Of a stretch of 64,000 nt of DNA, positions 1,994 to 59,992 are shown piece by piece (position 1 is the stretch's first letter; the number at the start of each line of letters is the position of its first letter). The DNA comes from Desulfonauticus sp. (GTDB lineage: Bacteria > Desulfobacterota > Desulfovibrionia > Desulfovibrionales > Desulfonatronovibrionaceae). The stretch is from the NCBI GenBank assembly GCA_030950395.1, contig JAUZRP010000014.1, forward strand, positions 1-64,000. The letters are read 5' to 3'. Below the pieces are notes generated by a model. The model was not told the DNA's origin. It was given only the letters and a program-made list of their open reading frames with translations, and searched no databases. The position numbers and the translations under genes are program-made.

Positions 1994-3112
1994 ATGCGCA
2001 ATATATTGCTTTGTCTTTGTGGACTAACCCCTCAAATTATTACAGAGACTATTTATGCTCTGGTAAAACTGGAAAACCCTCCTTATGTTCCAGACGAAGT
2101 TCACGTAATTACTACTGGTATTGGTAAAATGCTTATTAAAGAAAAATTATTGCACCCCGATCAAGGACATTTTTATGCCTTGTGTCAGGAATACGGACTA
2201 AAGAATATTCTTTTTGACGATTCTACAATTCACGTGGTCAGTAAAAATAATCAAGAGCTTTTTGATATTAAAGATAATCTCGATAACCAAGTTATGGCAG
2301 ATTGTATTTTAAGTGTAGTAAAAAATATTTGCTCTGACCCCGAGGTTAAACTCCACGCTTCTCTGGCTGGAGGTAGAAAGAGTATGAGTTTTTATTTGGG
2401 CATGGCTATGCAATTTTATGCTCGACCTCAGGATGAACTATCTCATATTTTAGTTAATCCACCCTTTGAAAATCATCCAGATTTTTATTATCCACCCAAA
2501 ATTCCTAAAGACTATACTGTTTATGATAAATTAAAAGATAGACTCTATACCTCAAATAGTTCGGAAGCTAAAATTGTATTAGCTAAAATTCCTTTTCTTA
2601 AATTGCGTGACCAGATTTTAGTTAAAACAGAAGATATCTCTTTTAGTAAACAAGTAGCATCTGTGCAAAAAATTCTTTCTAAACAAAAAACATCTTTATT
2701 ATTTGTATATCCCCAAATTTTAACTATTCAATTTAGATCTAACAGCTTGACATTGACTCCAATGGAAATGGCAATTTATTTACAACTAATAAAAAATAAA
2801 CAGAAATGCTCAAAAAAAATTTGTGATCATTGTTATGATTGTTTTATTGAAGTTTATAATTTTTCTTTGGAGCAAATTTACAATTTTTTGCGCACAATTT
2901 GGGGAGAATTTTCTGCTCGTTTAGAATCTGTTCAAAAACGTTTTGAAAACAGAGTTGACTTAAAAGATTGGTTTTTACAAAATAAATCTAGAATTAACAA
3001 AAAACTTGCAACAATAGATCCAAAAGGAGAGATTCAAATTAAAAGCTATGGTTCTTATGGAAGCAAGAGATATGGAATTTTAGTAAATAAAAAAGATATA
3101 GTGATATTATGA
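1994..3112 (+). CDS. NE0113-family CRISPR-associated CARF-type protein (putative ring nuclease) with C-terminal extension
   Basis: The N-terminal half opens with ILLCLCGLTPQIITETIYAL and contains SLAGGRKSMSFYLGMAMQFYA. These are hallmarks of the NE0113 family (TIGR02584/PF09623), a Rossmann-like CARF-type fold linked to type III CRISPR loci and often named a Csm6-type ring nuclease. The family core is roughly 200 residues. This protein has about 170 more: a segment with a helix-rich start (LTPMEMAIYLQLIKNK) that may be a winged helix, and a cysteine cluster (CSKKICDHCYDC). A TTG at 1982 is a possible earlier start, but ATG 1994 puts the conserved strand at the N-terminus; neither has a strong ribosome-binding site. 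The likely role is sensing or degrading cyclic oligoadenylate; this is family inference only. No Cas10 or other effector gene is in the window. Confidence 0.8.
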   Translation: MRNILLCLCGLTPQIITETIYALVKLENPPYVPDEVHVITTGIGKMLIKEKLLHPDQGHFYALCQEYGLKNILFDDSTIHVVSKNNQELFDIKDNLDNQVMADCILSVVKNICSDPEVKLHASLAGGRKSMSFYLGMAMQFYARPQDELSHILVNPPFENHPDFYYPPKIPKDYTVYDKLKDRLYTSNSSEAKIVLAKIPFLKLRDQILVKTEDISFSKQVASVQKILSKQKTSLLFVYPQILTIQFRSNSLTLTPMEMAIYLQLIKNKQKCSKKICDHCYDCFIEVYNFSLEQIYNFLRTIWGEFSARLESVQKRFENRVDLKDWFLQNKSRINKKLATIDPKGEIQIKSYGSYGSKRYGILVNKKDIVIL

Positions 3113-3415
3113 AAGATGCAACTGCAAAAAATAGATAGGAGTTCAATGAGAAAATTTTTTCAACAATTTAAGCTGGTTACAACTTGGAAATTTAATTAAA
3201 AACGCCAATTTTGGGTTTTTGCAGTTACGTCTATTAAATGAGTTACTTGACAGTTAGTTTTTTGTTAATACTTTTAAACCTGCCCCTTCTTTTTTTATAT
3301 TAGTCTTTTTTGTGATCCTGTCGTGTTTTTGGTAAGAATAAACCTTGTCATTTTTAACAATTTTGTTTATTTACCTGTGTTTACGGTAATAAAATTTGAT
3401 TAGGAGCTTATTTTA
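3113..3415. other. Intergenic region between the cas module and maeB
   Basis: This 303-nt gap contains dispersed-repeat copy A (3120-3226) directly after the last cas stop codon. The rest is AT-rich. A weak promoter-like pair, TTGTCA at 3345-3350 and TATTTA at 3368-3373 (17-nt spacer), and a small inverted repeat, TTACC/GGTAA at 3371-3389, lie just before the malic enzyme gene. No gene is visible. Confidence 0.5.
3120..3226 (+). repeat. Dispersed MITE/REP-like element, copy A
   Basis: Starts AACTGCAAAAA and ends TTTTTGCAGTT, a perfect 11-bp terminal inverted repeat, followed by ACGT. The right half carries the family core: TTTAAGCTGGTTACA, then AAAAACGCCAATTTTGGG. The same core occurs at copies B, C, D, E and H. 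It lies entirely between the NE0113 gene and maeB. Confidence 0.8.
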
Positions 3416-5987: not shown

Positions 5988-6662
5988 ATGAGCAAAGAGC
6001 AAGAACAAAGACAAGAAGAGGCAAAACACGTTAATATCTTTGAAGAGATAGAAGAAGAAGTAGATGAGACTGTCCATCCATTTTTGGAATGGATTTTAGA
6101 TCATATTAAACCCATAGGGATTGGAATTGGGGCGATTGTCTTGGGTGTTGCTGTTTATTCTGGGATTGACTATTATCATACCAAGAATATCCAGCAAGCC
6201 AAACAACAATTAGGGTTGATTTTAATAAATTCCAAAAACAAGGCTAGAGATTTAGAGCAATTTTTAAATAAAGCTCCAGACAAATTGAAGCCTGCCATTT
6301 ATATAGAATTGGCCAAAATTTATGTTAATGAAGGCAATTCTAATAAAGGTTTAGAAGTTTTAAAAAAATTAGAAAAGGTTGATGATGATATTTATCCTAT
6401 TTGTGTTTTAACAGAAGTAAATTTATTAATGAATGAAAATAAATATCAAGATGCTTATAAACTTTTAAAATCTGTAGAAAATAAGATGCCTACTACTTAT
6501 AAAAAGGAAGTTTTACTAAAAAAAGCTCTTTTAGCAGAAAAAACAAAAGACTTCAAACAAGCCTATGCTTGTTATCAAGAGTTAAAATCTGAGTATAAAG
6601 GAGAGGATACTTCTTATTTTGAATACAAGTTAAATATATTAAAAGATAAACTCGAGGGATAA
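5988..6662 (+). CDS. Membrane-anchored TPR protein, YfgM-like
   Basis: A 224-aa protein with an acidic, charged N-terminus, one membrane helix (about residues 36-58, PIGIGIGAIVLGVAVYSGI) and a C-terminal helical repeat region with TPR-like units (e.g. KPAIYIELAKIYVNEGNSNKGLEVL and KTKDFKQAYACYQEL). The layout matches the PF09976/YfgM-type family associated with the Sec translocon and envelope folding; that role is family inference. It has a strong AAGGAG site. The iorA start follows two bases after its stop, so the pair is probably translationally coupled, although no functional link is obvious. Confidence 0.75.
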   Translation: MSKEQEQRQEEAKHVNIFEEIEEEVDETVHPFLEWILDHIKPIGIGIGAIVLGVAVYSGIDYYHTKNIQQAKQQLGLILINSKNKARDLEQFLNKAPDKLKPAIYIELAKIYVNEGNSNKGLEVLKKLEKVDDDIYPICVLTEVNLLMNENKYQDAYKLLKSVENKMPTTYKKEVLLKKALLAEKTKDFKQAYACYQELKSEYKGEDTSYFEYKLNILKDKLEG

Positions 6663-6664
6663 AA

Positions 6665-8491
6665 ATGGACATTTTAATTCAAGGTAAGGCAGGAGAAAAG
6701 CACTTATTGTTGGGCAATGAAGCCATTGTGAGAGGAGCGATAGAAGCTGGAGTTGGTTTTATTTCTTGCTATCCTGGAACTCCTTCTTCTGAAGTGCCTG
6801 ATACGTTTTATCGTCTTAAAAATAAGGGCAGATATTATTTTGAATATTCAGTTAATGAAAAAGTTGCTTTAGAGGTGGCTGGTGGAGCTACTTTGGCTGG
6901 AGTTCCTGCCTTAGTAACTATGAAACATGTAGGAGTGAACGTAGGTGCAGATCCTTTGATGACTTTAGCGTATATAGGTACTCCTGGTGGTTTTGTGTTG
7001 CTTAGTGCGGATGATCCTTTTTGTCATTCCAGTCAAAATGAGCAGGATAATCGTTATTATGCACGTTTGGGAGGACTCCCTTGTTTTGAGCCTGCTAGTG
7101 CTCAGGAGTGTAAAGAAATGACCAAAGCTGCTTTTGAATTATCTAAAAAGTATGGTCAACCTTTTTTACTGCGTACAACAACCAGAATTAATCACTTGAG
7201 AGGGCCTGTTGTTTTTGGAGATGTGAAAGAACCTGAGATAAAAGGTGTTTTTGCTAAGCAGCCTTTTAGGTTTGTGCCCATACCTGCAGTAGCCAGAGAA
7301 AGACACAAGGTATTGCTTTCTAATCTTAACAAAATAAAAGAAGAGCAATGTAATTCGCTGTTTAATAAAATTTGGGGTGAAGGCCAGATAGGGGTAATTG
7401 TTTCTGGTATTAGCCGGGCTTATTTACACGATGTGTTGCTGGAATTTCCTGAGCTAAAAGTAAAGGTTTTGGAGTTAGGGTTTACTTATCCTTTGAGTCA
7501 GAAGTTGATTTTAAAATTTTTGAGAGATTTAGATAGGGTGCTGATTTTAGAAGAATTAGAGCCTATTTTAGAGCAGGAAGTTAGAGCTTTAATTCAACAA
7601 AATTCTCTTCAAATAGATGTGAAAGGTAAAGATATTGGTTTGCCTCGTTTTGGGGAATATTCTACCTCTTTAATTGCTAAGGCCCTTTTTAAAGTTTGCA
7701 ATTTAAGTTTTGAATCTAAAACTATTTGTGAACAAGAAACTGAGTTGGCTAATAGACCTCCCAATTTATGCCCTGGTTGTCCGCATCGTTCAGTTTATTA
7801 TGCTGTAAGAGAGATGTTTGGAGATGAAGCTTATTATTCTTCGGATATAGGCTGTTATACGTTGGGAATTTTACCTCCACTAAAAATGGCAGACTTTTTA
7901 TTGTGTATGGGTTCGTCTGTATCTGCTGGTAGTGGATTGAGCAGAGTGGTGGATAAGCCCGTAATTGCTTTTATTGGAGATTCTACGTTTTTTCATTCTG
8001 GCATTGCAGGATTGCTAAATGCCGTCTATAACCAGCACAATTTATTATTAATAATTTTAGATAACAAGACTACGGCCATGACCGGGCATCAACCACACCC
8101 TGGTTGTACGGTCGAAAAGATGGTTCAAGATGTAAAGCCCATACCTATAGAACCTGTTATTAGGTCTTTGGGTATAGAGCACGTTGTAAGTGTAAAGGCT
8201 TTAAATCAAAAAGCTTTAAAACAAGCTTTAGAAAACTTTAAAGATTTACCAGGTGTTAGAGTAATTATTGCCGAAGAGCCTTGTCCTCTTTTTGCCAGAA
8301 AGGTGTTAGGGAGGAAAAAAAATAAACGAGCTTATATTAGCGATACGTGTGATAATTGTCTAAAATGTGTGCAAGAATTGGCTTGCCCTGCATTTTTTAT
8401 AGATGAGAGTAAAAAAGTCCGTATAAATGCTGGGTTATGCTCTGGTTGTATGCTGTGTTTGCAAATTTGTGAACACATAAAAGCAGAGTAA
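6665..8491 (+). CDS. iorA: Indolepyruvate:ferredoxin oxidoreductase, alpha subunit
   Basis: TPP-dependent subunit that oxidatively decarboxylates aryl-pyruvates from aromatic amino-acid transamination, making aryl-acetyl-CoA and reduced ferredoxin. The 608-aa protein has the N-terminal pyrimidine-type domain (LGNEAIVRGAIEAGVGFISCYPGTPSSEVP) and the TPP-binding region (CPGCPHRSVYYAV, then FIGDSTFFHSGIAGLLNA). The C-terminal ferredoxin-like domain has cysteine motifs CDNCLKCVQELACP and CSGCMLCLQIC for two [4Fe-4S] clusters. Its partner iorB is not adjacent as usual: a repeat element and an ATPase gene lie between them (8538-9882). Confidence 0.95.
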   Translation: MDILIQGKAGEKHLLLGNEAIVRGAIEAGVGFISCYPGTPSSEVPDTFYRLKNKGRYYFEYSVNEKVALEVAGGATLAGVPALVTMKHVGVNVGADPLMTLAYIGTPGGFVLLSADDPFCHSSQNEQDNRYYARLGGLPCFEPASAQECKEMTKAAFELSKKYGQPFLLRTTTRINHLRGPVVFGDVKEPEIKGVFAKQPFRFVPIPAVARERHKVLLSNLNKIKEEQCNSLFNKIWGEGQIGVIVSGISRAYLHDVLLEFPELKVKVLELGFTYPLSQKLILKFLRDLDRVLILEELEPILEQEVRALIQQNSLQIDVKGKDIGLPRFGEYSTSLIAKALFKVCNLSFESKTICEQETELANRPPNLCPGCPHRSVYYAVREMFGDEAYYSSDIGCYTLGILPPLKMADFLLCMGSSVSAGSGLSRVVDKPVIAFIGDSTFFHSGIAGLLNAVYNQHNLLLIILDNKTTAMTGHQPHPGCTVEKMVQDVKPIPIEPVIRSLGIEHVVSVKALNQKALKQALENFKDLPGVRVIIAEEPCPLFARKVLGRKKNKRAYISDTCDNCLKCVQELACPAFFIDESKKVRINAGLCSGCMLCLQICEHIKAE

Positions 8492-8537
8492 TGCCGTTTA
8501 TGACGTCATTGTAAAAAACAAAATTTTTGTTTTTAAG

Positions 8538-8661
8538 ACGTAACTGCAAAAGTTTAAAATTTACGTTTTTGGTTAAATTGTCAAATTGTAATTAGCTTAA
8601 ATTATTAAATAAATTTTTTAATTGAACGTGCATATAACTGCTTAAAATAATTTTTGCAGTT
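8538..8661 (-). repeat. Dispersed MITE/REP-like element, copy B (most complete)
   Basis: Bounded by ACGTAACTGCAAAA and TTTTTGCAGTT. Read on the minus strand it gives the family core TTTAAGCTAATTACAATTTG followed by AAAAACG, so it is inverted relative to copies A, C, D and E. Near its right end an internal TAACTGC pairs with the terminal GCAGTT (8634-8661), so that end can fold into its own hairpin. It sits between iorA and the ATPase gene that together separate iorA from iorB. Confidence 0.82.
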
Positions 8662-8751
8662 GGATCGGTTGTTATATGTAGTTTTCATGTACTGGTAAAT
8701 TAAAGCAATTAGCGATAACTAATTATCAAGTGTTAGTTACTGGAGATAGCA

Positions 8752-9882
8752 ATGAGGAAGATAATTTATAGAGACGGTCTTTTTATAGATAGAGATGATG
8801 AAGAGAAGTTTATTTTAGAGAGGTTAGAAAAGAGGTCGGAAAATATTTTGTTTATTTATGGACCGAAGTCCAGTGGTAAGACTAATTTTATTGAATACAT
8901 AGTAGAAGAGAAGTTGAGTAAAAAGAGAGATAGATTTTACGTAAATTACATAAACTTTAGAAGATATGCTATAGTTAATTATTCTTCTTTTTTAAACGTG
9001 TATTTTTTCCCCATTAGAGAAGAAAACAAGCCTTTTTTAGCTAAGATGTCAGATAAATTTAAATTGGTATTTGATAGTTTGAGGGGAGAAGTTAGTTTAC
9101 CAGAAGAGGGAGTGAATTTTGCTATAAGTTTAAATTTATTTGAGGCTATGGAGCGAAATGATTTGGATCAGTTTAAAGTGATATTTGAGGTGTTAAAAAA
9201 GATTAAGAGTACTGGTCGCGTTCCCGTGTTGATTATAGATGAGGTTCAAGAGTTAAAAGACATTTACATGAATGGAGATATTAAGAAGAGGTATTTATTA
9301 ACTGAGTTTTTTAAGTTTTTGGTGAGTCTGACCAAAGAGACGCATTTAGCGCATATAATAGTTTTAACCAGTTCTTCATTGTTTATTGATGAGATTTATA
9401 ATAATTCCAATTTAGCTCAAACCAGTGAATTCTTTTTATTTGATCACTTTAATTATGAAGTTATAAGAGAATGGTTAGAAGATGAAGGTTTTAGTTTAGA
9501 GGAGATAGATTTGGTCTGGGAGTATTTGGGCGGTTGTCCTTTTAATATCCTGAATTTACTTTCCAATAGAGATATTTTGCCCAATTTTGAATTAAAGTCT
9601 TACTTACATAGAGAAGCTATGTTGATGCGTGGTAAAATTGATTTTACTATGGTAGATTTGGATAAAGAAGAAAGACAGGATTATTTTATAGAATTAATGA
9701 AGACCATAATAGAAAACGGTTTTGCCCTTAGAAATTCCAAAAATAAATTGCAGACAGAAGTGTTAAATGTAGTAATAGATAAGGATATTTTATTTGTGAG
9801 GGCTGAGACAGGGGAAATTATTTTTAATTCTCAGATAATGAAAAAGGGAGCTGAGCTTTATTTAAATCAGATTAAGAGGTAA
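8752..9882 (+). CDS. Archaeal-type P-loop ATPase (PF01637-like), intact copy
   Basis: A 376-aa AAA-type/STAND-like ATPase of the family found mainly in archaea and thermophiles. It has the Walker A GPKSSGKTNF (about residues 36-45), the Walker B VLIIDEVQEL, and a C-terminal winged-helix-like region ending EIIFNSQIMKKGAELYLNQI. GGAG lies 6 nt before the ATG. The biological role of the family is unclear. It interrupts the iorA-iorB pair, and a near-identical but frameshifted copy lies at 45617-46733. Two AGCGTTAAGAAA direct repeats with a 14-nt period follow its stop. It is probably a recent arrival or duplication. Confidence 0.85.
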   Translation: MRKIIYRDGLFIDRDDEEKFILERLEKRSENILFIYGPKSSGKTNFIEYIVEEKLSKKRDRFYVNYINFRRYAIVNYSSFLNVYFFPIREENKPFLAKMSDKFKLVFDSLRGEVSLPEEGVNFAISLNLFEAMERNDLDQFKVIFEVLKKIKSTGRVPVLIIDEVQELKDIYMNGDIKKRYLLTEFFKFLVSLTKETHLAHIIVLTSSSLFIDEIYNNSNLAQTSEFFLFDHFNYEVIREWLEDEGFSLEEIDLVWEYLGGCPFNILNLLSNRDILPNFELKSYLHREAMLMRGKIDFTMVDLDKEERQDYFIELMKTIIENGFALRNSKNKLQTEVLNVVIDKDILFVRAETGEIIFNSQIMKKGAELYLNQIKR

Positions 9883-9907
9883 GCGTTAAGAAATGAGCGT
9901 TAAGAAA
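9882..9907 (+). repeat. 14-nt-period direct repeat after the ATPase gene
   Basis: AGCGTTAAGAAA occurs twice (9882-9893 and 9896-9907). Closely related TAAGCGTTAAGA sequences follow the frameshifted ATPase copy at 46737-46763, so the motif travels with this gene's 3' end. Confidence 0.7.
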
Positions 9908-9930
9908 AATAACATCTAGAGGTTAGTATT

Positions 9931-10524
9931 ATGTCTTTAAAAAGAATTTTTTTTGCTGGTGTAGGTGGGCAGGGTACTTTAACTGTAACTAATCTTTTTG
10001 CTAGATTAGCTTTGGATAAGGGGATCCCTGTAACAGCTGGTGAGATACACGGGATGGCCCAACGGGGTGGAGTAGTTCATACCTTTGTGCTTTTGGGAGG
10101 ATATTTAAGTCCAAAGATAGAGCAAGGAGAAGCAGACGTTTTGCTTGGTTTTGAACCTTTAGAAACCGTAAGAGCTTTACCTTTTTTAAAGTATAAACAA
10201 GGGGTAGTAGTTTCTAGTAAAAATCCTATTTATCCTGTAAATGTGTCCTTAGGACAAGAGTCTTATTTGGCAATGTCGGATATTAAAGACAAATGCCAAC
10301 GTTGCGCTAATAAAAGTTATTTTTTCCCTGTATTGGAAAAAGCATTGCAACTTGGTATTCCTCAAGTAGCCAATATTATGCTTTTGGCTGCTTTTTTAGC
10401 TTTAGATGTAGTAGAAATTTCTCTGAAAGATTTGAAGGAAGGAGTAAAAAAATATTTAAGTCCTAAAATTGTAGATATAAATTTAAAAGCAATAGATCAG
10501 GCCAAAGCTTTAATAAATTTTTAG
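9931..10524 (+). CDS. iorB: Indolepyruvate:ferredoxin oxidoreductase, beta subunit
   Basis: The smaller, gamma-type subunit of the IorAB complex. The 197-aa protein opens with FFAGVGGQGTLTVTNLFARLA and contains AGEIHGMAQRGGVVHTFV, both characteristic of the 2-oxoacid:ferredoxin oxidoreductase gamma domain. It completes the enzyme begun by iorA more than 1.4 kb upstream. A sigma-54 activator gene starts 5 nt after its stop. The gene may need its own promoter, or read-through from the inserted ATPase gene. Confidence 0.94.
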   Translation: MSLKRIFFAGVGGQGTLTVTNLFARLALDKGIPVTAGEIHGMAQRGGVVHTFVLLGGYLSPKIEQGEADVLLGFEPLETVRALPFLKYKQGVVVSSKNPIYPVNVSLGQESYLAMSDIKDKCQRCANKSYFFPVLEKALQLGIPQVANIMLLAAFLALDVVEISLKDLKEGVKKYLSPKIVDINLKAIDQAKALINF

Positions 10525-10529
10525 AAAAG

Positions 10530-12041
10530 ATGCGTTACTTAGATATATTAAGAAATATTATTTTAGAATTGTCTTTTTCTAAATCTTTAAAAGATAATTT
10601 AACTGACATTTTACACCAGGTAACTCAAATAATGCATTATAAACACATGTCTTTGGCTATTTTTGACCCTGTCTCTCAAAAGATAGAATTTTGTATCTAT
10701 TCTGGATATCCCAAAACACCTAAAAAAACTTATTCTTTAGGGGAAGGCATTATAGGTCAGGTGATAAAAGGAAAAAAAACTATAGTTGTGCCTATCATGG
10801 GGAAAGAGCCAAATTTTTTAAATTTGGCTTTTAATAGAAATGTAGAAGATTTAGATAAACTTTCTTTTATTGCAGTGCCTGTGTTATTAAAAAACAGTGA
10901 AGGTTTAACAGAAATTTTTGGAGTGTTAACTGCGGATATTGAAGATGATTTTGAAAAATTAGATGAACATAAGTCTTTTCTAGAATTGTTAGCAGTAATT
11001 ATTGCCAGACATACTTCTTATCTTCAGGACGAAATTGCGAAAAAGCATTTTTTGGATAATTTTTCCAGCTCCCAACAGGTTTCTTCTGGTCGGGATAAGG
11101 TGATTTTTTCTTCCAAAGCTATGTCTCAAATAATGACTCAGATAGCTCAGGTAGCTCCTTCAAAAGCTACAGTTTTACTTAGAGGAGAGTCTGGCACGGG
11201 TAAAGAAGTTATTGCTGAGGCCATCCATGAAATGAGTAAAGTTAAAGATGGTCCTTTAGTTAAACTAAATTGTGCGGCTTTACCATCAGATTTAATAGAA
11301 ACCGAGCTTTTTGGGCACGAAAAAGGAGCGTTTACTGGAGCTATAACTACTAAAAAAGGTAAATTTGAGTTAGCCCATAAAGGGACTTTGTTTTTAGATG
11401 AGATTGCTGAATTAAGTTTAGAAGCTCAAGCCAAATTGTTGCGAGCTATTCAGGAAGGAGAAATTCAAAGAGTTGGAGGGGAAAAAACTATTAAAGTTGA
11501 TGTGAGAATAGTTTGTGCTACTCATCAACCGTTGGAAACATTAATTCAAGCAAAAAAATTTAGAGAAGATCTTTATTTTAGGATAAATGTATTTCCTGTT
11601 TATATACCTGCTCTAAGAGAAAGGAGAGAAGATATTTTGCCTTTAGCAGAGCATTTTTTAAGTCTTTATGCTGCTGAGTATGGTAAAAAGATAAAGAGAA
11701 TTTCTACTCCAGCCATTGATCTTTTATTACAATATCATTGGCCAGGCAATGTCAGAGAGTTAAAAAACTGTATGGAACGAGCTGTTTTAATATGCGATGA
11801 AGAAGTGATTAGAACCTATCACTTACCTCCTACTTTACAAACTGCTGAAAGTTCAGCCACAGATAATCAATTGCCTTTTGCCGAAGCTGTTGCTAAATTT
11901 GAACAGGAATTGTTAATAGAAGCCTTAAAAAAAGCAAAGGGCAATATGTTGCAAGTAGCCAGAGACCTTAAAGCAAGTTATCGAGTAATTAATTATAAAA
12001 TAAAAAAATACCACATCAATCCCAAAAAATTTGCTCGTTAA
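10530..12041 (+). CDS. GAF-domain sigma-54-dependent transcriptional activator (NifA-like)
   Basis: A 503-aa activator of RpoN-dependent promoters. Order of parts: an N-terminal GAF sensor (about 20-165), the AAA+ domain with Walker A GESGTGKE (219-226) and the sigma-54-contacting loop GAFTGA (266-271), then a Fis-type helix-turn-helix (NMLQVARDLKASYRVINYKIKKY). It lacks a receiver domain, so it probably senses a small molecule or redox state through GAF. Tight linkage to iorB suggests control of amino-acid or 2-oxoacid oxidation, but no clear -24/-12 promoter was seen at the ior genes. Confidence 0.92.
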   Translation: MRYLDILRNIILELSFSKSLKDNLTDILHQVTQIMHYKHMSLAIFDPVSQKIEFCIYSGYPKTPKKTYSLGEGIIGQVIKGKKTIVVPIMGKEPNFLNLAFNRNVEDLDKLSFIAVPVLLKNSEGLTEIFGVLTADIEDDFEKLDEHKSFLELLAVIIARHTSYLQDEIAKKHFLDNFSSSQQVSSGRDKVIFSSKAMSQIMTQIAQVAPSKATVLLRGESGTGKEVIAEAIHEMSKVKDGPLVKLNCAALPSDLIETELFGHEKGAFTGAITTKKGKFELAHKGTLFLDEIAELSLEAQAKLLRAIQEGEIQRVGGEKTIKVDVRIVCATHQPLETLIQAKKFREDLYFRINVFPVYIPALRERREDILPLAEHFLSLYAAEYGKKIKRISTPAIDLLLQYHWPGNVRELKNCMERAVLICDEEVIRTYHLPPTLQTAESSATDNQLPFAEAVAKFEQELLIEALKKAKGNMLQVARDLKASYRVINYKIKKYHINPKKFAR

Positions 12042-16770: not shown

Positions 16771-16889
16771 TTACAAAATTTATTTTAAACAGTTGTATAT
16801 ACCTTCAATAAGAAGATTTTTTTATAATTTTAACTGGTTACAATTTGAAAATATAACTAAAAAAGAAAATTTTAGGTTTTTGCTGTTAT
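16771..16889 (+). repeat. Dispersed MITE/REP-like element, copy C (degenerate)
   Basis: The core TTTTAACTGGTTACAATTTG and the end TTTTTGCTGTTATA match the family with substitutions. The left end (TTACAAAATTTATTTTAAACAGTTGTATAT) corresponds to the left hairpin of copy B, although the terminal AACTGC is lost. It fills most of the gap before gatB. Boundaries are approximate. Confidence 0.65.
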
Positions 16890-16923
16890 ATTTTAAAAAT
16901 ATTTTTTTGTTTGGAGGGAAAAA

Positions 16924-20713: not shown

Positions 20714-21027
20714 TTATTTTTCAAAATAGCAATAAGCAAAAATTTTTTTAAAATTTTTATGTGCTTTACTTTGTCGCTAGGTGTTACGAAAGATTAGAGA
20801 CTAATAAATAAAATTTTTGTTTTTAAGATCCAGCTCAAAAAATTATTTTAAGCAATCAGATACAAGAAGAAAATTTTTTTAATAAGTTAAGCTGATTACA
20901 ATTTGACAACTTAATCAAAAATGCGAATTTTGGGCTTTTGCAGTTATATTTTTTATCAATTTAATCATTTTATTGTTATATGTTAGAAAAAGATTTATTT
21001 TTTGTAATTTGAAATAAAGGAGTGTTT
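20714..21027. other. Intergenic region before the class V aminotransferase
   Basis: A gap of about 310 nt. It holds repeat copy D (20831-20946). Before it is an AT-rich stretch with AAAATTTTTGTTTTTAAGA (20810-20828), which also abuts copy B. After it, TTATCA at 20953-20958 and TTATAT at 20976-20981, 17 nt apart, make a weak promoter candidate for the aminotransferase gene. No gene is visible. Confidence 0.45.
20831..20946 (+). repeat. Dispersed MITE/REP-like element, copy D
   Basis: The core GTTAAGCTGATTACAATTTG, then AAAAATGCGAATTTTGGGC and the terminus TTTTGCAGTTA, match copies A and E. The left end (CAGCTCAAAAAATTATTTTAAGC) is a degenerate form of the AACTGCAAAAATTATTTTAAGC end seen in copy B. 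Confidence 0.78.
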
Positions 21028-37649: not shown

Positions 37650-37718
37650 AACTGCGAAAAATATTTTTCGCTTAGGTACACGTTTAACAATAACATAAAT
37701 TTTAGGCTTTTGCAGTTA
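37650..37718 (+). repeat. Dispersed element, copy G (short form) with perfect palindrome
   Basis: Begins AACTGCGAAAAA and ends AAATTTTAGGCTTTTGCAGTTA, the family terminus, but lacks most of the core (69 bp). It contains the perfect 18-bp palindrome GCGAAAAATATTTTTCGC (37654-37671). Its right end overlaps the ruvX stop codon, so the last base pairs of ruvX are element-derived or the insertion occurred exactly at the stop. The palindrome could act as a hairpin in the ruvX transcript. Confidence 0.72.
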
Positions 37719-38144
37719 TATGTTGCTCTTAGTGTTTTGTAAAAAATATTGTTCTAAAATTACACTCGCTGCCAATTGATCAATGAGTAATTTTTTCTTT
37801 TTTTTATTTTTTAAATTTAAGGCAGATAATTTTTTTTCTGCTTCAAAAGAAGTATATCTTTCATCTATTTGTAAAATAGGTAAATTTACTTCTTTTTTTA
37901 ATTTTTTAGTAAAATTTAATACCTGTTTAGTGGTAAGAGATGGTTCTCCATTCAAATAATAGGGAATGCCAATAACAATTTTGTCTATTTTTTCTAAAGC
38001 AATTATTTCTTTTAATGTAGTAAATAGGGATTGATTATCTGTTTTTATTAGAGTTTTATAAGGAACAGCTATTTTGAGCTCTTCGTTGCCAATGGCCAGG
38101 CCAATTCGTTTTAGACCATAATCTATAGCCAGTATTTTTGCCAT
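37716..38144 (-). CDS. ruvX: RuvX/YqgF-family RNase H-fold nuclease
   Basis: Putative pre-16S rRNA nuclease or Holliday-junction resolvase homologue, 142 aa. It has ILAIDYGLKRIGLAIG with the first catalytic aspartate, KIVIGIPYYLNGEPS, and LQIDERYTSFEAEKKL. Two Lys-rich stretches near the C-terminus (NLKNKKKKKLL) are somewhat unusual. It is upstream of mltG on the same strand. Confidence 0.92.
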   Translation of the reverse strand: MAKILAIDYGLKRIGLAIGNEELKIAVPYKTLIKTDNQSLFTTLKEIIALEKIDKIVIGIPYYLNGEPSLTTKQVLNFTKKLKKEVNLPILQIDERYTSFEAEKKLSALNLKNKKKKKLLIDQLAASVILEQYFLQNTKSNI

Positions 38145-44486: not shown

Positions 44487-45620
44487 ATGACAAAATCTCA
44501 ACGCAAAATGTATATTTTTCTTTTTGTATTAACTGTAGTCACTACTTTAGGATTTCAGGGATGGAGGATTTTGATTAATAATTTTGCTGTAGAAATAGTC
44601 AAAATAAACGGTCAGGAAATGGGGTTATTGCAATCTATTAGAGAAGTACCAGGTTTTTTGGCTTTGTTAGTGATTTATTTGCTTTTTATTTTCACAGAGC
44701 ATAGATTAGCAGCTTTATCTGTCATCATTTTAGGTATAGGTGTAGGTTTAACAGGTTTTTTCCCTTGTTTTTTGGGTCTTGTATTTTGCACTTTGCTTAT
44801 GTCTTTTGGTTTTCACTATTATGAAACTTTGAATCAATCTTTAACATTGCAATATTTTGATTTAAAACAAGCCCCCCTTGTAATGGGCAAACTAAAAGGT
44901 CTTGCTGCTTTAGTAAATATTATTACAGGAGTTATTGTTTTTGGATTGGCTTTTTGGTTAAATTATAAGCAAATGTTTTTAGTTTTGGGTGGGTTAACTG
45001 TTTTGGGTGGATTGTGGGCCTTGGTTCAGGATCCTTCAGACAAACAACTTCCTCCCCAACACAAAAAGATGATTTTAAGGAAAAAATATTGGCTGTTTTA
45101 CGTTCTAACTCTTTTTGCTGGAGCAAGGAGACAGATATTTGTTGCTTTTGCAGTTTTTTTGTTAGTAAAAAAGTTTCACTATTCTATACTTGAAATTTCA
45201 GTGCTTTTTGTTGTAAACAACGTTTTAAATTATTATTTTAGTCCTATTTTAGGTAAAGCTATTAATCGCTTTGGAGAGAGATGGATTTTAAGTTTAGAAT
45301 ATTTTTCTCTTATTTTTATTTTTTTAGTGTATGCTTTTGGAGAAAATAAATGGTTAATTGGAATAATGTATATTTTAGATCATATTTTTTTCAATTTCGC
45401 CATAGCAATTCGTTCTTTTTTTCAAAAAATAGCTGATCCTAAAGATATTGCCCCTAGTATGGCAGTTGGCTTTACAATTAATCACATTATCGCCGTTATT
45501 GTACCTGTAGTAGGAGGAGTTTTGTGGATGTATGATTATAGAATACCATTTATTGGAGGGGCTATTTTCAGTTTTATATCTTTATGTTTTGTTCAATTAA
45601 TTAAGTATAAGGGGGAATGA
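44487..45620 (+). CDS. Major facilitator superfamily transporter
   Basis: A 377-aa polytopic membrane protein, somewhat short for the MFS but with about eleven or twelve helices, and GLLQSIREVPGFLALLVIYLL and VMGKLKGLAALVNIITGVIVFG in the N-terminal half. The ORF track starts at TTG 44457; ATG 44487 has AAGGATGG at the correct distance and is preferred. Its TGA overlaps the start of the broken ATPase copy (ATGA). Substrate unknown. Confidence 0.87.
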   Translation: MTKSQRKMYIFLFVLTVVTTLGFQGWRILINNFAVEIVKINGQEMGLLQSIREVPGFLALLVIYLLFIFTEHRLAALSVIILGIGVGLTGFFPCFLGLVFCTLLMSFGFHYYETLNQSLTLQYFDLKQAPLVMGKLKGLAALVNIITGVIVFGLAFWLNYKQMFLVLGGLTVLGGLWALVQDPSDKQLPPQHKKMILRKKYWLFYVLTLFAGARRQIFVAFAVFLLVKKFHYSILEISVLFVVNNVLNYYFSPILGKAINRFGERWILSLEYFSLIFIFLVYAFGENKWLIGIMYILDHIFFNFAIAIRSFFQKIADPKDIAPSMAVGFTINHIIAVIVPVVGGVLWMYDYRIPFIGGAIFSFISLCFVQLIKYKGE

Positions 45621-46733
45621 TAAGAAAAATAAAATATAGAGGAGTATCATTTGTAGATAGAGAAGATGAAGAAAATTTTATTTTAGATAGATTAAAAGAA
45701 GAAGCAAATAATATTTTATTTATTTATGGACCGAAGTCTAGTGGCAAGACTAATTTTATAGAATACATAGTAGAGGAGAAGTTAAGTAAAAAGAGGGATA
45801 GATTTTATGTGAATTATATAAATTTTCGTGGTTATGCTTTGGTGAATTATTCTTCATTTTTAAATATATTTTCCCATCAGAGAGGAGCATAAGTCCTTTT
45901 TGGCTAAGATGTCAGATAAATTTAAGATAGCGTTTGGTAGTTTAAAGGGAGAAGTGAGTTTACCTGAAGAGGGAGTAAATTTTGCTATAAGTTTAAATTT
46001 GTGTGAGGCTATGGAGCGAAATGATTTGGATCCGTTTAAAGTGATATTTGAGATTTTAAAGAAGATAAAGAGCAAGGGTCGCATGCCAGTATTGATTATA
46101 GACGAGGTTCAGGAGTTAAAAGATATACATATGAATAGAGATATAAAGAAGAGATATCTTTTGACCGAGTTTTTTAAGTTTTTGCTGAGATTGACCAAAG
46201 AGACGCATTTAGCTCATATTATAGTTTTGACCAGTTCTTCTTTGTTTATTGATGAGATTTATAACAATTCTAAATTGGCTCAGACTAGTGAGTTTATTTT
46301 GTTTGATCACTTTAATTATGAAGTTATAAGAGAATGGTTAGAAGATGAAAGTTTTAGTTTGGCAGAGATAGATCTGGTGTGGGAATATTTTGGCGGTTGT
46401 CCTTTTAATATTCAGAGTTTACTTTCCAATAGAAATATTTTGCCTAATTTTGAGTTAAAGTCTTACTTAAATAGAGAAGCCATGTTGATGCGTGGTAAAA
46501 TTGATTTTACTATGATAGACTTAAAGACCAAGCCTAGACGAGAATATTTTATAGAGCTTATGAGGAAGATAATTAAAGATGATTATGTGTTAAGGGATTC
46601 TAATAATGATTTGCAGATAGAAGTGTTAAATATAGTAATAGACAAGGATATTTTATTTGTTAGGGCAGAGACAGGAGAGATCGTTTTTAATTTTCAGATA
46701 ATGAAAAAAGGAGCTGAGCTTTATTTGAATTAG
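45617..46733 (+). pseudogene. Frameshifted second copy of the archaeal-type ATPase
   Basis: Two consecutive ORFs (45617-45892, 91 aa, and 45900-46733, 277 aa) together cover the whole of the intact ATPase at 8752-9882 with high identity, including GPKSSGKTNFIEYIVEEKLSKKRDRF and VLIIDEVQELKDI. In the region matching NVYFFPIREENK a net loss of 5 nt shifts the frame. Read in the downstream frame the sequence continues P-I-R-E-E-H-K-S-F-L-A-K, so the break is one indel. The second ORF lacks the Walker A loop and is unlikely to act alone. Its 3' end is followed by TAAGCGTTAAGA-type repeats, like the intact copy. Confidence 0.88.
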
Positions 46734-53066: not shown

Positions 53067-53172
53067 TGCCCAAATACCCATAACTCTCATCTGAGCAGCG
53101 ATTAATTCTAACTTTTTTAAATAACCCTAGCTTTTTATAGACAAAAAAAGGCTCTTAGTTTATAGGATCCCT

Positions 53173-53292
53173 CTGTAAAAACTAATTTAAAGTTAAACAG
53201 AAACTTAACGATAAAATTTTTTAATCATTTAAACTAGTTACAGTTTAAAAATTTAATCAAAAACGCCAATTTTGGGCTTTTGCAGTTACGTC
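53173..53292 (+). repeat. Dispersed MITE/REP-like element, copy E
   Basis: The right half is very close to copy A: AAAAACGCCAATTTTGGGC followed by TTTTGCAGTTACGT. The core reads TTTAAACTAGTTACAGTTT. The left end is degenerate (CTGTAAAAACTAATTTAAAG, then ACAG), but CTGT and ACAG keep the small hairpin. It sits just upstream of mfd. Confidence 0.78.
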
Positions 53293-53364
53293 TTATAGGA
53301 CATTTTTGCCAAAAGAGGGTGTGGTCGACAAATTAATTTTTTAATTAAATTAGTTAGTTAAAAT

Positions 53365-58965: not shown

Positions 58966-59859
58966 ATGTCTTTAGGAGATATTGGTAAACAATTAAAAGA
59001 GGTCAGAGAAGAAAAGAAAATAACTTTAGAGCAAGTACATCAAAAAATAAAAGTTGGTATTCATATTTTAAAAGCAATTGAAGATGGTAATGACAAAGGA
59101 TTACCTCATCCTATTTATACTCGAAGTTTTATAAAAGAATACGCAAAATTTTTAGGGTTAGATTGGAAAAGAATAGTAGATGTATATAGTGAATTTTATA
59201 ATATTGATAATAGAGTAGATCAAATTGACAAATTACCAACCACTAGTGAAAGTTCTGATAAAAATTATAGAAAAAAGATTATCTGGATTGTTATTATTAT
59301 TGTTATCTTTGTAATCATTTTGCTAAATAAAAATTCTCAACATTTAGTTAAGAAACAAAAATTATTTACCAACTCATCTTTGACAAAGAATAATTCTTTG
59401 AATAATTCTTTTTCAAATTCATCCAATGTGATAATTCCTAAATTTAAAAAGGATCTAAGCAATAAACAATTTAATTCTTCTGAAAATAATCAAAGCAAGT
59501 CTTCTAAAGATATTAATCATAATAAAAATAATACTAAAGAATTAAAGATAACTCCTAAGTCTAAGGATACAATTTTAAAACAAAACAAGCAAAATAATTC
59601 TACAGCAGTTTTTGAACAAAGAGTAAAGATTATCGCAAAAGAGCAATGTTGGGTACAAGCTAAAATGGATGATATTATAAAAGAATATTATCTTTACAAA
59701 AATGATAAAGTAAATTTAAAATTTAAAAATTATTTGGATTTAAAATTAGGTAATGCTGCTGGAGTTGACGTTTATTTTAATGATAAAAAGATAAGTTTCA
59801 ATGCAACAGAAGGACAGGTGAAGATTTTACATTTTCCTCCTCAGAAAAATAAGAGATAA
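58966..59859 (+). CDS. rodZ: RodZ-like cell-shape protein
   Basis: A 297-aa protein with an N-terminal HTH_25 domain that binds MreB in RodZ (IGKQLKEVREEKKITLEQVHQKIK, YTRSFIKEYAKFLGLD). One membrane helix (about 105-122, IIWIVIIIVIFVIILL), a Ser/Asn/Lys-rich linker and a C-terminal DUF4115-type beta domain (AKEQCWVQAKMDDIIKEYYLY) follow. The linker is unusually Asn-rich, in line with the AT-rich genome. It helps to organise rod shape. Confidence 0.92.
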   Translation: MSLGDIGKQLKEVREEKKITLEQVHQKIKVGIHILKAIEDGNDKGLPHPIYTRSFIKEYAKFLGLDWKRIVDVYSEFYNIDNRVDQIDKLPTTSESSDKNYRKKIIWIVIIIVIFVIILLNKNSQHLVKKQKLFTNSSLTKNNSLNNSFSNSSNVIIPKFKKDLSNKQFNSSENNQSKSSKDINHNKNNTKELKITPKSKDTILKQNKQNNSTAVFEQRVKIIAKEQCWVQAKMDDIIKEYYLYKNDKVNLKFKNYLDLKLGNAAGVDVYFNDKKISFNATEGQVKILHFPPQKNKR

Positions 59860-59976
59860 GTGCAAAAGTTAGAAGATTGTTTTTTTTTGATTGATTTGTT
59901 AAATTGTAATCAGCTTAAATTATTGAAAATATTTTTATTGAATATATGTCTGGTTGATTAAAATAATTTTTATAGT
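59860..59976 (-). repeat. Dispersed MITE/REP-like element, copy H
   Basis: Starts TGCAAAAG directly after the rodZ stop and contains AAATTGTAATCAGCTTAAATTATT, the reverse complement of the family core. It ends TTTTTATAGTTGG, a degenerate right terminus. It occupies the whole rodZ-recO gap, and its end supplies the artificial 5' extension of the recO ORF in the track. Confidence 0.75.
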
Positions 59977-59992
59977 TGGCTTAATAAAACAA

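Follow-up and report, generated by a model that had tools for sequence, protein, structure and literature searches.

A PF01637 ATPase gene between iorA and iorB in a Desulfonauticus genome, one of a set of in-operon insertions by one gene family

Lineage-specific expansions of PF01637 ATPases are known from archaea. The ATP-binding protein WP_064496998.1, encoded by a 58-kb plasmid of Methanocaldococcus jannaschii, contains the same domain as the ATPase that is the subject of this work and is 37% identical to it over 79% of the latter, but here the host is a bacterium and the large expansion of the family is concentrated in operon junctions. A comparable expansion was described for a different ATPase family in Cardinium cCpun: the available part of that report (PMC6387759) gives 25 divergent paralogues of the DUF1703 (PF09820-PDDEXK_9) ATPase, with signs of recombination and, as in our case, with partial copies at contig borders, whereas operon insertion and 7-nt tracts are not described in it.

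Two other systems resemble single aspects of the locus. In Coxiella the intervening sequence of 23S rRNA holds an ORF for an S23 protein, which is preceded by tandem heptamers (PMC4990558). Like our ATPase this is a small gene inside a transcription unit, and S23-family genes stand beside two of the ATPase sites found here, but the Coxiella element, as presented in the accessible sections of that paper, is inserted in rRNA genes and includes no ATPase. In Beggiatoaceae direct repeats of the heptanucleotide TAACTGA occur in tandem between genes, also inside operons (PMC4679880). Unlike the degenerate tracts described below this is, to judge from the available text, one fixed heptamer that is not linked to an inserted gene family. 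A search of the open-access literature, of which parts of the texts were available, turned up no description that links an expanded PF01637 family with insertion into operons and with heptamers next to S23 genes.

The iorA–iorB junction here and in relatives

The window is the whole stretch of Desulfonauticus sp. DNA that was analysed, 64,000 nucleotides long. It contains in this order, all on the plus strand, iorA (6665-8491), a 132-bp repeat (~8535-8666), a PF01637 ATPase gene (8752-9882) and iorB (9931-10524). An earlier note on this DNA had placed all four features correctly, only the repeat proved to be slightly longer than the 8538-8661 given there. The host gene on the 5' side of the insertion, iorA, encodes the alpha subunit of indolepyruvate:ferredoxin oxidoreductase (TIGR03336; PF02775, PF01855), and its product scores above the equivalog cut-off (TIGR03336, 733.1 bits vs 650.9). 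The intact iorB gene encodes an IorB-like protein, in all likelihood the beta subunit (PF01558, 93 bits). IorB profiles were the best NCBIfam matches of its product (E 8e-44, full length), with scores below the strict equivalog cut-offs (139.8 vs 205.8 for TIGR03334 and 149.9 vs 238 for the best profile), and the protein is 76% and 74% identical to IorB of the two congeners. A search for Rfam families in positions 6000-11000 found none.

The product of the gene between them (376 aa) matches PF01637 with 138 bits, the cut-off being 33.2. Walker A (GPKSSGKT, residues 37-44) and Walker B (LIIDE, ~160-164) are both intact, and Y36-G37-P38-K39-S40, G42-K43-T44 and D163-E164 are invariant over 15 paralogues. 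The reading frame is intact and constrained. No nuclease domain was detected in the PF01637 proteins scanned. A sequence search found no relatives in the PDB, profile matches being confined to the Walker motifs, and the structure predicted from the single sequence was unusable (mean pLDDT 42.8).

Where this genome has 1439 bp between iorA and iorB (8492-9930), G001 has 85 bp and G002 10 bp; these two genomes served as congeners throughout this work. In every other Desulfovibrionales locus for which the spacing was computed it falls between 9 and 98 bp, nearly always between 9 and 40 bp; the figures are from fetched loci on the plus strand. No ATPase was seen at any other Desulfovibrionales iorAB locus fetched, minus-strand loci included. 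Because the relatives, both congeners among them, have the short spacing and lack the ATPase, we regard the gene between iorA and iorB as a derived insertion. The view of the earlier note that the two genes, usually neighbours, are separated here by an insertion is borne out; the note had said that an ATPase found at this position in the majority of relatives would speak against it, and the relatives have none there. Contamination or misassembly was considered for this case and rejected, since the genes on either side are those to be expected and the locus lies within a 160-kb contig. In one relative (G005, locus L062) the gap between iorA and iorB, 98 bp long and without an ATPase, contains heptamer-like repeats, GGCTAATGGGTTAATGGGATAAG.

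For the expression of iorB the earlier note had left a choice between read-through and a promoter supplied by the inserted DNA. Between iorA and iorB nothing resembling a terminator was found, promoter-like matches were at chance level (12 found vs 10.1 expected), and the pN/pS of iorB equals that of iorA. Because there is no terminator, promoters do not exceed chance and iorB is constrained like iorA, read-through from the iorA operon is the most likely way in which iorB is expressed, and the new promoter finds no support. A purine-rich ribosome-binding site, as read from the sequence, precedes both the ATPase gene (GGAG) and iorB (AGAGG).

The PF01637 family in this genome

The insertion at iorAB does not stand alone: members of the same gene family are inserted in operons across the genome, and this dispersal is the larger finding. 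Over the cut-off the 2.2-Mb genome contains 17 near-full-length and about 15 partial PF01637 genes; most of the partial matches touch contig ends, as would be expected of repeats, at which an assembly breaks. At E<=1e-20 the family was found in 11 of the 150 genomes of the order, with 13 scored matches in this genome and 1-5 in the others. With the window ATPase as query there was no relative in G002 and one degenerate remnant in G001.

In this genome a family member, always co-directional with the host genes, occupies each of eight junctions for which at least one congener has the closed form: iorAB, hypDE, ilvNC, der-ilvE, pnp-fmdB, nnr-tsaE, asd-aminotransferase and MFS-proA. The corresponding gap in at least one congener is 7-126 bp at all eight sites, iorAB included, and at two of them G002 has an unrelated gene. 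For three of the eight (der-ilvE, nnr-tsaE and pnp-fmdB) the insertion was joined across contig gaps via the gene order of the congeners: a concatenated query of the flanking proteins found the pairs pnp/fmdB, nnr/tsaE and der/ilvE to be neighbours there, therefore the ATPase halves at our contig ends belong to those junctions. Gene names are our reading of the translations, except for proA, the S23 genes, the aminotransferase and the ABC transporter. At several places the arrangement can be read directly: the ATPase lies between hypD and hypE, between asd and the aminotransferase gene, and between uvrC and trkH, two ATPase genes follow ftsZ, and between ilvN and ilvC there are an S23 gene and three ATPases. 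One sister copy is in the window itself (45617-46733, plus strand), between an MFS gene and proA, a junction that measures 25 bp in G001. It is 83.6% identical to the iorAB copy in nucleotide sequence over 1159 bp, is frameshifted by a 5-bp deletion, and its first ATG overlaps the stop codon of the MFS gene (ATGA). Among the copies for which the orientation could be judged the upstream gene was co-directional in 16 of 18 (p=7e-4 vs chance) and on the opposite strand in two; one copy is opposite to both neighbours.

Genes of other families were also seen near the ATPases. S23 or four-helix-bundle genes (TIGR02436) lie directly beside ATPases at L009:5005-5409 and L014:333-701, and a search for such genes in the two congeners found none. 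Two genes of nuclease-type families were noted as well, PF09820-PDDEXK_9 near an ATPase copy (L025:1398-2933) and DUF3782-PDDEXK_10 adjoining another (L026:2431-2856).

In the tree the iorAB and proA copies group with a partial homologue from G008, the other copies fall into three further groups, and two of these include genes of G023 or G031. The three ATPases between ilvN and ilvC belong to three different groups, which therefore suggests repeated insertion at one place rather than tandem duplication. Between the iorAB and der-ilvE ATPases dS is 0.16-0.22 and dN/dS 0.11-0.33, and the last 200 bp of these two copies are nearly identical. Since dS between iorA and its counterparts in the congeners is at least 1.5, the family seems to have spread after the species had split, provided that the dS of the copies was not reduced by gene conversion.

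Copy ends, heptamer tracts and the dispersed repeat

The similarity of the iorAB, der-ilvE and MFS-proA copies covers the reading frame, start and stop codons included, and extends hardly at all outside it; their upstream sequences are unrelated. Inspection by eye revealed neither terminal inverted repeats nor target duplications at ATPase boundaries of the iorAB type. Many other copies have leaders and trailers made of degenerate 7-nt tandem repeats, some of them also with a 9-nt tract and a hairpin, GGGGCAGACC; in the tract-bearing clades the gene can take its leader along, as in the pnp and fabF copies. Of 43 ATPase flanks 19 contain period-7 tracts, whereas none were found in the intergenic regions that served as controls (112; p=7e-13). 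Since these controls were drawn from the loci already fetched, and tracts with no ATPase do occur elsewhere, the zero is a property of the sample. The hairpin pattern has 14 matches in this genome and none in the four relatives searched. At the iorAB copy a few 7-nt units, GCGTTAAG AAATGAG CGTTAAG as read from the sequence, directly follow the ATPase stop codon (9883-9904, plus strand), and there are none upstream. These remnants are like the units beside two sister copies and are too short for the tract threshold.

Modules of heptamers plus hairpin also occur without an ATPase: two of them lie between co-directional genes on contig C46 (L193, 131304-131539 and 140573-140732 in contig coordinates), the second one between two flagellar-type genes. 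G023 belongs to a different family of the order; it has an ATPase gene and an S23 gene in tandem, and heptamer tracts of the GTGAACN type flank each of the two (L250:3600-5350). Because ATPase, S23 gene and heptamer tracts are found together there too, the association reaches beyond one genome.

The 132-bp repeat is of another kind. It is non-coding and its ends are inverted (AGACGTAACTGCAAAA / TTTTTGCAGTTGGATC), with TA often but not consistently flanking. The genome search returned at least 42 matches, the best 40 of 196 candidates having been scored. A profile found 22 copies on the 160-kb contig, 22 of 22 outside ORFs though about 90% of the contig is coding; in the window further copies are at 3112-3234, 16773-16894, 20823-20952, 37685-37721, 53162-53296 and 59850-59982, none of them inside an ORF. 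The same kind of search did not detect the repeat in three relatives (the two congeners and one family member), and its predicted RNA fold is nothing unusual (z -1.3). Short, non-coding, with terminal inverted repeats and present in many intergenic copies, it has the features by which MITEs and similar short dispersed repeats are recognized, but a search of the genome for a DDE_3 partner found none.

How the gene family may have spread

In our judgement the ATPase gene between iorA and iorB is probably a recently inserted copy of a dispersing PF01637 family that spreads co-directionally into junctions and is compatible with read-through, the repeat being an independent arrival. The family would enter many intercistronic junctions, nearly always on the strand of the host operon, and at iorAB the ATPase and iorB would both be translated from read-through transcripts of iorA by means of their own ribosome-binding sites, so that IorAB would still be made. 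As to the steps of the movement we are less confident. Ectopic recombination or gene conversion might bring short fragments that contain the ORF to new places, perhaps often with the 7-nt tandem tracts beside many copies as recombination sites, and selection might then keep the co-directional insertions. Such a tract-based route may fit many copies, and is weakest at the iorAB copy because only remnant 7-nt units are present there, with none upstream. A bolder version of this reading, which we put forward tentatively and think less likely than not, is that of a transposase-free mobile gene: the ATPase ORF, often with heptamer leader and trailer and sometimes with S23-type genes, would copy itself in sense orientation into the gap that follows a stop codon within an operon and live on read-through. 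The three enzyme families that we searched for in the genome, DDE_3, Y1_Tnp and RVT_1, are absent.

This absence also bears on the notion of a transposase that mobilizes the ATPase cassettes in trans, where the ATPase itself might choose the target in the manner of TniB, TnsC or IstB. Some paralogues have weak matches to TniB, and the repeated clean insertions at intercistronic sites would be in keeping with it, but the lack of terminal inverted repeats and target duplications at boundaries of the iorAB type adds to the lack of the three enzyme families, and makes this doubtful. PF01637 and STAND proteins have the P-loop ATPase core in common. The genes might accordingly serve in anti-phage defence as STAND-like genes; selection would have amplified them, their place in operons would secure their expression, and ordinary duplication would stand in place of any special mobility. 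A weak nSTAND3 match and weak PADLOC matches point that way. However, the PADLOC matches (best E 1.5e-8) are confined to the generic ATPase region, there was no match to a specific profile, no relatives of the family were found in phage records or viral contigs, and ordinary duplication fails to explain insertions whose limits nearly coincide with those of the reading frame; this origin seems unlikely to us, if not quite as doubtful as a transposase in trans.

The possibility raised by the earlier note, that the inserted DNA furnished iorB with a new promoter, can be extended to a repeat that is itself the mobile element and has the ATPase as its cargo. The repeat does lie directly upstream of the ATPase, elsewhere repeats are found just downstream of ATPases, and it holds sigma-70-like matches. 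These matches are not above chance, though, repeats between co-directional genes point with the direction of the genes in 8 cases and against it in 8, most repeats have no ATPase nearby, and at iorAB there is a single copy, upstream only. Because both sister copies of the ATPase lack the repeat at their visible ends, we reject it as the vehicle, which makes this explanation highly improbable, and we judge the repeat to be a separate MITE-like insertion that landed in the same junction. Scarcely any weight can be given to the idea that the iorAB operon has recruited the ATPase for a function in it, for example to regulate the oxidoreductase or to act as its chaperone: an intact, constrained gene in the middle of an operon is what recruitment would leave, but operons unrelated to this one (hypDE, ilvNC, der, pnp, nnr) contain related genes, the sister copy at proA is frameshifted, and the arrangement is found in no relative. 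Insertion by a dispersing PF01637 family thus remains our preferred reading.

It is commonly assumed that the operons of essential enzymes do not admit insertions. In this lineage at least eight junctions have been opened by one gene family with no obvious damage, and the same sites are closed in congeners, which makes the entry of genes into operons directly testable. If the mobility of the family is real and does not depend on a transposase, it would represent a different route of gene dispersal in bacteria.
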